A stretch of 34,763 bases of DNA, taken from the IMG/VR virus record IMGVR_UViG_3300031963_000507, positions 1 to 34,763 of that record. One strand, written 5' to 3'. The stretch's first letter is position 1, and each line of letters starts with the position of its first letter. The stretch comes from a virus. This document shows, piece after piece, positions 28,921 through 31,051 of this stretch. The notes under the pieces are model-generated. The model saw only the letters and a list, made by a program, of their open reading frames with translations, ran no database searches and had not been told where the DNA came from. Position numbers and translations under genes: made by a program.

Positions 28921-29159
28921 AAGCTATCCTTTCTCAAATAATCATAAGAGCCAATATTCAAGAGGATTACGCCAGCAACTTCATCGGTTGTGTGACCAAG
29001 TTTTGTTGCGACCTCACCAATGGTTAAGCCCTCTCTAAAGGTATCTAGGATTTTTTGCCTCTGCTCTTGCGGCAATCCCTTTGCGACCTCAGTCCATGGC
29101 TTTGGTGTGTTCTTGAATTTCATTCGAGCTACAAAGAGTTGCATCGATCTCTTACTCAT
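28917..29159 (-). CDS. Small HTH-like protein
   Basis: The 80-residue product has a basic N-terminal part (SKRSMQLFVARMKFKNTPKPW) and a likely helix-turn-helix (ILDTFREGLTIGEVATKLGHTTDEVAGVI, split landmark) seen in small early phage proteins. Its ATG overlaps the stop of the methyltransferase as ATGA and lies just below the stop of the overlapping second frame. A DNA-binding role is inferred. Confidence 0.5.
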   Translation of the reverse strand: MSKRSMQLFVARMKFKNTPKPWTEVAKGLPQEQRQKILDTFREGLTIGEVATKLGHTTDEVAGVILLNIGSYDYLRKDSL

Positions 29160-30021
29160 TGGCAGTCCCCGATTGCTTCAAGGCTTGCTTTAATGAATTG
29201 CGCCGCAACCGCCGGGACAATGGCGTTTCCATAGGCGCGCAATTTAGATGCTCTTGCGGGTATCCCATGAGCCAGCAGACAAATTGAGGGTTCAATGAGC
29301 CTTTGCTTTCCGTCTGAGCAGTCAATCCATGCACCGCCCTGCCAAGCAGGGAATTTAAGGGGACGTTCTTGACTGATTCCGCAGTCCCGTCTTTCCAGTC
29401 CCTGGTTGTTGGTGTCGGCCACATCGCCTGATGGTGCATTGATTGCACTACATGCGCCAGTTGACTGCTGTGTTTCGCACGCTGCATCCAGCGGTAACTG
29501 TAATTTACCGCATCTGATGAGCGACTCGCATTTTCGTCTGCGCAATTCGGCGTGGGCCACATCGCTGGATGCACTTGTTCCCTCAGGTTCGCTGGTGCCG
29601 TCCTGCCCTTGCGCGTGGTGCTGAATTGCCTGTCCATCGCCTCCATACTGCGCGGCGGCAGGCAATCCATTGTATTTGGCGTTGCCCATAATGCTTGCAC
29701 TGCTAGATTGGGCGTTGCGTGCTCCCCCCTGTCCTTGCTGCGCTTGCTGTTCATACGATTCTGGAAGCCTTCTAGTGACTCCTCTATCATTGTAACCCTG
29801 GGTGTGTGCCACAAACCATAATCTATCTCTTTTGTGCGGCGCACCGACACTGCAAGCTGGCAATACCGCCGCCCCCGTGGTGTAACCTTCTCTTTCCAAA
29901 TCATCGGCCACATCATCCCACCACTCGTGGGTAATAGCTGCTGCAACTTGTTCTCCATAGACTGTTTCGGGCTTTCCTGCTCGAATAAGTCTGTAAAATT
30001 CAGGCCAGAGGTGTCGTTCAT
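29152..30021 (-). CDS. Second long gene inside the methyltransferase gene (WPTP-repeat protein)
   Basis: The frame is open on the same strand for 289 codons from the ATG at 30021. That ATG has an AAAAGG ribosome site 8 bases upstream, inside methyltransferase codons. An earlier ATG at 30093 without a good site adds 24 residues. The product has five WPTP-like blocks (WHTPR ~71, HATPN ~101, WATPN ~112, WPTPN ~155, WPTPT ~201) and ends with LNPQFVCWLMGYPQEH. These segments look like a conserved phage protein family known by sequence pattern only. The function is unknown; it may work with the methyltransferase. Some conservation could be a shadow of the other frame. Confidence 0.6.
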   Translation of the reverse strand: MNDTSGLNFTDLFEQESPKQSMENKLQQLLPTSGGMMWPMIWKEKVTPRGRRYCQLAVSVRRTKEIDYGLWHTPRVTMIEESLEGFQNRMNSKRSKDRGEHATPNLAVQALWATPNTMDCLPPRSMEAMDRQFSTTRKGRTAPANLREQVHPAMWPTPNCADENASRSSDAVNYSYRWMQRAKHSSQLAHVVQSMHHQAMWPTPTTRDWKDGTAESVKNVPLNSLLGRAVHGLTAQTESKGSLNPQFVCWLMGYPQEHLNCAPMETPLSRRLRRNSLKQALKQSGTANE

Positions 30022-30301
30022 CGTTTTTACCTTTTTGCTTTCCTGCGGTGCTGAACGGCTGACAAGGCGGCGAGCCTGTCCATATTGGCGCATCGTCTGG
30101 TACGCCCGCCAGCTTTAACGCTATAGACCAGCCGCCCAAACCCGCGAAAAAGTGGCATTGGCTAAACCCCTTTAAATCGCCTGGCATGACGTCCTGAATA
30201 GGTCTAGTGTCAACCTCGCCGCTAGCTATCTGACCAGCGGCCATTAAATTCCTGAGCCACTCAGCGCAATACGGGTCTATTTCGTTATAATAGGCGGCCA
30301 T
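29156..30301 (-). CDS. DNA (cytosine-5) methyltransferase, phage type
   Basis: The ATG at 30301 was chosen (AGG 5 bases upstream; a GTG at 30325 adds eight residues). The 381-residue product has C5-methyltransferase motifs: HFFAGLGGW (~51-58, motif I), SPPCQPFS (~77-84, motif IV, catalytic Cys80), YGEQVA (~115-120, motif VI with Glu), HKRDRLWFVA (~156-165, motif VIII) and AYGNAIVP (~356-363, motif X). The ~170 residues before motif IX contain repeated VAHT, MGNA, VAHA and VADT units that line up with WPTP-type motifs in another frame. It probably marks phage DNA against restriction. It overlaps the next gene as ATGA. Confidence 0.9.
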   Translation of the reverse strand: MAAYYNEIDPYCAEWLRNLMAAGQIASGEVDTRPIQDVMPGDLKGFSQCHFFAGLGGWSIALKLAGVPDDAPIWTGSPPCQPFSTAGKQKGKNDERHLWPEFYRLIRAGKPETVYGEQVAAAITHEWWDDVADDLEREGYTTGAAVLPACSVGAPHKRDRLWFVAHTQGYNDRGVTRRLPESYEQQAQQGQGGARNAQSSSASIMGNAKYNGLPAAAQYGGDGQAIQHHAQGQDGTSEPEGTSASSDVAHAELRRRKCESLIRCGKLQLPLDAACETQQSTGACSAINAPSGDVADTNNQGLERRDCGISQERPLKFPAWQGGAWIDCSDGKQRLIEPSICLLAHGIPARASKLRAYGNAIVPAVAAQFIKASLEAIGDCQ

Positions 30302-30309
30302 AGTACCTA

Positions 30310-30555
30310 TCAATCTTCTAAGCACTTAAAAATATAAAGATCGTATGCGTATTGCAAACCTAGCCAGTAACTAGGCGTTTTACCTAAAGCTAAGCAAAAG
30401 CTACGCGCTGTAAACTTAGTTATTTTTTTATGCCCGCTTAAAATGGAATATAGGTTGCCAGGTGTTATTCCCGTCCTAAAAGCAACCTCTTTAGGCCGCA
30501 AATTTAGCCGCTTCATTTCGTCTTTAATAACAATGCCCGGATGTGGTGTTGTCAT
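30310..30555 (-). CDS. HigA/XRE-type HTH regulator without toxin gene
   Basis: The 81-residue product (HPGIVIKDEMKRLNLRPKEVA, RTGITPGNLYSILSGHKKITKFTA) matches the HigA/VapI antitoxin form of the XRE helix-turn-helix. It continues LALGKTPSYWLGLQYAYDLY, the usual end of this family. No HigB-like toxin is adjacent, so it is more likely a phage regulator or an antitoxin that neutralises a host toxin. An AGG ribosome site lies 8 bases before the ATG. The methyltransferase starts 9 bp downstream. Confidence 0.75.
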   Translation of the reverse strand: MTTPHPGIVIKDEMKRLNLRPKEVAFRTGITPGNLYSILSGHKKITKFTARSFCLALGKTPSYWLGLQYAYDLYIFKCLED

Positions 30556-30976: not shown

Positions 30977-31051
30977 TGGTTGCCGCACTAGGATTTGAAC
31001 CTAGAACGTACCCGTTATGAGCGGGGCGTGTTACCGTTACACCATACGGCA
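30977..31051 (-). tRNA. tRNA with CAU anticodon (Met, or Ile2)
   Basis: On the minus strand the 75-base sequence folds as a full cloverleaf. The acceptor is TGCCGTA/TGCGGCA (one G-T pair), the D stem GTGT/ACAC with loop AACGGTA. The anticodon stem is CCCCG/CGGGT (top pair mismatched) with loop CTCATAA, and the T arm is CTAGG-TTCAAAT-CCTAG. CCA is encoded. The anticodon CAT is at 31017-31019. The stem lacks the three G-C pairs of an initiator. Sequence alone does not separate elongator Met from Ile2 with lysidine. Confidence 0.85.

Follow-up and report, generated by a model that had tools for sequence, protein, structure and literature searches.

A second gene under selection, overlapping a phage C5-cytosine methyltransferase gene in the +1 frame: a probable two-polypeptide enzyme

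The window analyzed here is a viral contig of 34,763 nucleotides (IMG/VR record IMGVR_UViG_3300031963_000507), whose minus strand carries a predicted C5-cytosine DNA methyltransferase gene, hereafter alpha, and, in the +1 frame of alpha, a second gene, beta, that overlaps 75% of its length on the same strand (Table 1). For alpha, ATG 30301 was judged a better start than the alternative GTG 30325, with which the ORF would extend over 29156-30325 (minus). The +1 frame is open from beyond 30093 down to 29152 (minus), and the beta-frame ORF (29152-30093, minus) encodes 313 aa from its first ATG or 289 aa from ATG 30021. A sequence-only reading of the same DNA had described a long second gene of 289-313 codons in another frame of the methyltransferase gene, with VAHT/MGNA/VAHA/VADT units corresponding base for base to W.TP units of the second frame. 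Gene and lengths were recovered as described, and the four units coincide (at 29811, 29688, 29559 and 29421).

Table 1. Coordinates of the features of the alpha/beta locus, given as positions in the window.
Feature	Position	Strand	Remarks
Alpha: predicted C5-cytosine DNA methyltransferase large subunit	29156..30301	minus	381 aa from ATG 30301
Beta: second protein, +1 frame of alpha	29152..30021	minus	289 aa, phrog_1008
Possible 5' extension of beta from ATG 30093	30022..30093	minus	judged not translated as beta
Ribosome-binding-like AAAAAGG	30030..30036	minus	8 nt before ATG 30021
Alpha motif IV PCQPF, including catalytic Cys80	30053..30067	minus	Cys80 invariant, 50-row alignment
Motif IX stretch	29257..29298	minus	beta SLNPQFVCWLMGYP; same bases in alpha, RLIEPSICLLAHGIP
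Dual-coded repeat unit 1: beta WHTP / alpha VAHT	29800..29811	minus	
Dual-coded repeat unit 2: beta WATP / alpha MGNA	29677..29688	minus	
Dual-coded repeat unit 3: beta WPTP / alpha VAHA	29548..29559	minus	
Dual-coded repeat unit 4: beta WPTP / alpha VADT	29410..29421	minus	

Besides a HigA-like HTH gene, the neighbors of the pair comprise a helicase gene and small ORFs without assignment; several neighbors have no match, and no restriction endonuclease was recognized among them. The HigA-like HTH gene (phrog_1381, plasmid antitoxin with HTH domain; 30310-30555, minus) lies directly upstream of alpha and ends 9 bases before ATG 30301; no partner toxin was recognized for it, and regulation of the methyltransferase is a possible role. 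Just upstream of the methyltransferase cluster sits one tRNA gene (30977-31051, minus), with a CAT anticodon.

Alpha matches PF00145 (E=2e-24) and phrog_363 (E=6e-78), and the catalytic region of M.HhaI aligns with it. The catalytic motifs I, IV, VI, VIII and X are retained, including the C5 methyltransferase features of a catalytic PCQ, the Glu of motif VI (which reads EQV, not ENV), the RxR of motif VIII and the GN of motif X. Across a 50-row alpha alignment, C80, E117, R158, R160 and G358 are invariant and N359 nearly so, and the MAAYYNEID start is conserved. The AlphaFold model of alpha is mostly confident for residues 1-170 and matches M.HhaI over about 180 columns only (E=4.5e-10). Residues 192-249, 276-317 and 340-358 are predicted to be disordered (pLDDT <50), and it is here that the recognition domain and motif IX would lie in an ordinary enzyme. 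As modeled, alpha would lack a folded small domain.

The observed +1 open stretch of 318 codons was reached by none of 5000 codon permutations of alpha (largest 240) and by none of 5000 synonymous permutations (largest 275). These counts, together with a beta-frame identity above expectation (see below), led us to reject a chance open frame, which the sequence-only reading had already held to be unlikely. Relatives show the same openness: over about 210-350 codons per locus, 63 distinct loci contain 46 stops in the +1 frame vs 700 in the +2 frame, and 270, 345 and 503 in the reverse frames. Nearly all of the 46 are confined to the final few dozen codons, at the end of beta. The loci were gathered nearly all via alpha alone, which kept beta from biasing the sample; a few came from beta searches instead, and the pattern was unchanged. 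Second-frame stop codons in relatives, a check put forward in the earlier reading, are therefore rare. A premature beta stop with alpha open was found in 2 of the 63 relatives (L082 and L086: TAG at alpha codon 171, TGA at codon 224), so that beta may at times be dispensable; these two loci are possibly natural beta mutants.

Of the ORFs matched by a beta profile (best 80 loci per scan), 269 of 269 are in frame +1 relative to an alpha ORF. The matches stem from bacterial genomes, viral contigs and phage and plasmid records, with some loci overlapping and not all being distinct genes, and come from phages and prophages of several bacterial phyla; the same frame relation recurs in distant hits from phages of Paenibacillus, Bacteroides, Lacticaseibacillus, Rhodobacter, Erythrobacter and Vibrio. 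Neither a standalone nor an in-frame fused beta was found in the genome and viral collections or among the distant phage hits (best 80 loci per scan). The proposed search for second-frame homologues outside methyltransferase genes thus returned none (same scope). This outcome leaves dual coding intact, since the second frame can be seen directly to be constrained, as set out below. All 66 members of the beta alignment match phrog_1008, and alpha corresponds to phrog_363; the "uncharacterised phage family" of the sequence-only reading is PHROG 1008, whose only label is "DNA methyltransferase".

At two loci, L002 (3403-3922) and L100 (3618-3765), the first beta ORF is followed, without a change of frame and within an enlarged alpha gene, by another piece of beta that resembles motif IX, possibly a tandem duplication of the 3' part. 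A prophage methyltransferase of E. coli strain ECCTRSRTH03 (L307, 2863-4032) is annotated as two incomplete pseudogenes.

Purifying selection acts on both frames. Among alpha codons that are fourfold-degenerate and whose amino acid is conserved, third positions diverge by 0.63 ahead of the overlap and by 0.33 within it; the value drops to 0.14 at motif IX, where constraint is strongest, and is about 0.6 past the beta stop. Divergence at codon positions 1/2/3 shifts from 0.041/0.027/0.275 outside the overlap to 0.240/0.159/0.202 inside, as dual coding predicts. Beta-frame similarity also exceeds what conservation of alpha alone predicts, with an identity at motif IX of 0.62 vs 0.27 expected after synonymous permutation of both partners. 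For omega, changes were counted by their effect in both frames (32 disjoint pairs, 21 clusters), by plain counting in which the transition weight was fixed and saturation at 72-96% identity left uncorrected; the alignment was built on alpha and should favor alpha, not beta. Ahead of the overlap, omega_alpha/omega_beta was 0.13/0.98. Motifs IV-VIII gave 0.28/0.60, the variable repeats 1.00 (0.91-1.09)/0.73 (0.57-0.90), the motif IX stretch 0.48/0.27 and the sequence past the end of beta 0.39/1.04, such that omega_beta is 0.27-0.73 within the overlap and about 1 outside. The rate comparison suggested in the earlier reading accordingly finds constraint in both frames, at fourfold sites, in codon positions, under permutation and in omega.

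ATG 30021, which is alpha residue 102 when counted from GTG 30325, is the probable start of beta. Its upstream sequence reads ...gcAAAAAGGtaaaaacgATG, with AAAAAGG at an 8-nt spacer, in agreement with the ribosome site 8 bases before this ATG noted from the sequence. The earlier ATG 30093 has no SD in front of it and was set aside: since synonymous constraint in alpha rises only near alpha residues 90-105, a start at 30093 is probably too early, and 30021 fits the onset of constraint. In relatives, the candidate beta starts are concentrated at alpha residues 98-102, and an SD-like site precedes 33 of 35 TTG codons at residue 100 and 12 of 14 ATG codons at residue 101. Some relatives have no ATG, GTG or TTG at residues 98-102, so a start there may not hold for the whole family.

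The C-terminus of beta (LNPQFVCWLMGYP) aligns with motif IX of C5 methyltransferases, a weak match suggesting that beta may supply this motif. When the beta profile was compared with 13 ordinary C5 methyltransferases in hhalign, SLNPQFVCWLMGYP was placed on RRLTPRECCRLMGYP (motif IX; P=0.024, weak, probability 2%), the only spot at which the profile aligns with these enzymes, and the match coincides with the site of strongest synonymous constraint of alpha. Alpha itself displays an R-x3-P-x7-G-x-P pattern at the motif IX bases, and P-x7-G-x-P appears in both frames because the same bases serve both; in a Bacteroides phage, beta keeps the motif IX stretch (LNPLFVEEMMGFP) and the R...P pattern of alpha is lost. 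Pfam and NCBIfam searches of beta gave chance-level hits only, Foldseek with the beta model returned no structural relative, and no sequence relative of known structure was found. The fold prediction of beta alone was of low confidence (pLDDT 59, pTM 0.25); such an unfolded prediction would be expected of an obligate partner, and equally of many other proteins.

W.TP units number from 0 to 5 among relatives, and beta has a hairpin (TWK..TP.gr..RLRAS) alongside them. L017, a near relative, lacks about 123 nt separating units 1 and 2, a gap that keeps both frames in register. It is also mosaic over this part of the locus (29689-30235): a diverged allele (~30% different) replaces bases 29816-30235, between flanks that are 90-98% identical. 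DNA recognition is probably carried by beta, not alpha, because in the repeat region alpha is neutral (omega 1.00) and predicted to be unfolded while beta is constrained. A broader proposal, which we advance tentatively and with doubt slightly outweighing belief, is that the locus belongs to a large, little-recognized phage methyltransferase class whose enzyme is split over two frames, with recognition in the WxTP units of beta and the matching alpha sequence as their neutral shadow; gain, loss or exchange of units, of the sort seen between the window and L017, would then change specificity in one step.

The locus is dual-coding, conserved and under selection in both frames. By analogy with the two-polypeptide enzyme M.EcoHK31I, we consider it highly probable that one stretch of DNA encodes a phage C5-cytosine methyltransferase of two polypeptides, a heterodimer in which alpha is catalytic and beta contributes motif IX and recognition. 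In this orphan phage enzyme, alpha (frame 0) would be the large catalytic domain, with motifs I, IV (including the catalytic Cys), VI and VIII and the C-terminal motif X. Beta (frame +1), we infer, would be made by internal initiation at ATG 30021, give motif IX and the target-recognition small domain, and bind alpha to form a complex with methylation activity, as in M.EcoHK31I. The middle of alpha would be largely a linker, its sequence dictated by beta, and the enzyme would probably protect phage DNA from host restriction. A dual-coding unit with both products in DNA modification had been suspected in the sequence-only reading. Dual coding is borne out by the rare +1 stops and the selection on both frames, and both products most likely act in DNA modification; the M.EcoHK31I precedent and the specific role of beta proposed here were not part of that reading.

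Beta could instead be a real overlapping gene with a separate role, for instance regulating the methyltransferase, inhibiting a restriction enzyme of the host or serving as an accessory protein that binds DNA. This would be compatible with the lack of a relative of known structure and of a confident fold, with the weakness of the motif IX match, and with the 2 of 63 relatives in which beta is truncated and alpha open. Beta, however, was never seen away from alpha (269/269, best 80 loci per scan), and alpha is predicted to have no folded small domain of its own. Moreover, the strongest constraint on beta lies exactly on the motif-IX-like stretch, the Bacteroides phage beta preserves LNPLFVEEMMGFP where the R...P pattern of alpha is gone, and M.EcoHK31I offers a biochemical precedent for the heterodimer, so that we regard a separate role as unlikely.

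The other two alternatives concern how, or whether, beta is made. Synthesis by +1 ribosomal frameshifting from alpha, which would fuse the N-terminus of alpha to beta, could account for a beta frame that is often open upstream of the candidate start and for the relatives that have no start codon at alpha residues 98-102. We judge it very improbable, given that SD-preceded starts cluster at these residues in many relatives and in the window, that constraint on beta begins in the same region, and that the corresponding subunit of M.EcoHK31I is a separate, smaller polypeptide (PMC3404938). The open frame might also be a by-product of methyltransferase codon usage and repeats, without a product, as the degenerate repeats in the overlap and the shadow that a strongly conserved alpha can cast into another frame would allow. 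This we find scarcely credible: 0 of 5000 synonymous permutations of alpha reproduce the open frame, beta similarity is far above the shadow expectation, and only inside the overlap is synonymous divergence halved or more and omega_beta <1.

If the two-polypeptide reading is correct, an enzyme type of which very few examples are known would become a class with conservation across hundreds of phages and prophages; in most records seen, only one of the two genes is annotated and half of the enzyme is missed. Long dual coding in double-stranded DNA phages is also clearly exemplified by the locus, with selection measurable in both frames, and the partition of selection yields a testable claim on the DNA-reading subunit, contrary to the TRD prediction for M.EcoHK31I.

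Compared with known systems, the locus resembles the monomeric enzymes M.HhaI and M.HaeIII in the catalytic large domain, found here in alpha, but these enzymes hold the TRD and motif IX in one chain and frame. M.AquI (CYCGRG) is a C5 methyltransferase of two mutually complementing polypeptides (PMC3404938), and the locus would likewise make one C5 methyltransferase from two polypeptides. Whereas the M.AquI subunits follow in order (motifs I-VIII, then the distal TRD half with IX-X), motif X here stays in alpha, and the alpha and beta genes share the same bases in two frames.

The small polypeptide of M.EcoHK31I, of about 176 aa, is read from a different frame within the gene for the large one. 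The two-polypeptide nature of this enzyme was reportedly described by Lee, Kam and Shaw in 1995 (NAR 23:103). M.EcoHK31I is a two-polypeptide C5 methyltransferase (YGGCCR) whose large polypeptide comprises motifs I-VIII and X, with the TRD predicted in this subunit, and whose small polypeptide comprises motif IX only (PMC3404938). The window locus is likened to it by this described motif layout, not by sequence; M.EcoHK31I was not identified by tblastn in plasmids or by blastn in E. coli genomes, and the E. coli loci examined for it are prophage loci. In both systems, motif IX would reside on a second, smaller polypeptide (here beta; P=0.024, a weak sequence match), and the small-subunit gene lies inside the large-subunit gene in another frame, here always +1. 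Unlike M.EcoHK31I, the window locus is phage-borne, with no restriction gene recognized beside alpha and beta; its beta is longer (289 aa, with four W.TP repeats), and selection points to recognition in beta, in contrast to the TRD predicted in the large subunit of M.EcoHK31I.

The same +1 alpha/beta overlap, with both ORFs annotated, occurs in Escherichia phage K1G ("C-specific methylase" and an overlapping "Mte8-like protein") and in Paenibacillus phage Leyra (LEYRA_61/LEYRA_62), whose beta proteins share only about 24-30% identity with the window beta and whose records state no mechanism. Most other records seen name one gene only at this locus, and none of the papers searched describes the phage alpha/beta overlap. 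The arrangement is known but rare, and the locus would, by analogy, represent a phage member of the M.EcoHK31I-type kind; new here are its wide conservation and the division of selection between alpha and beta.
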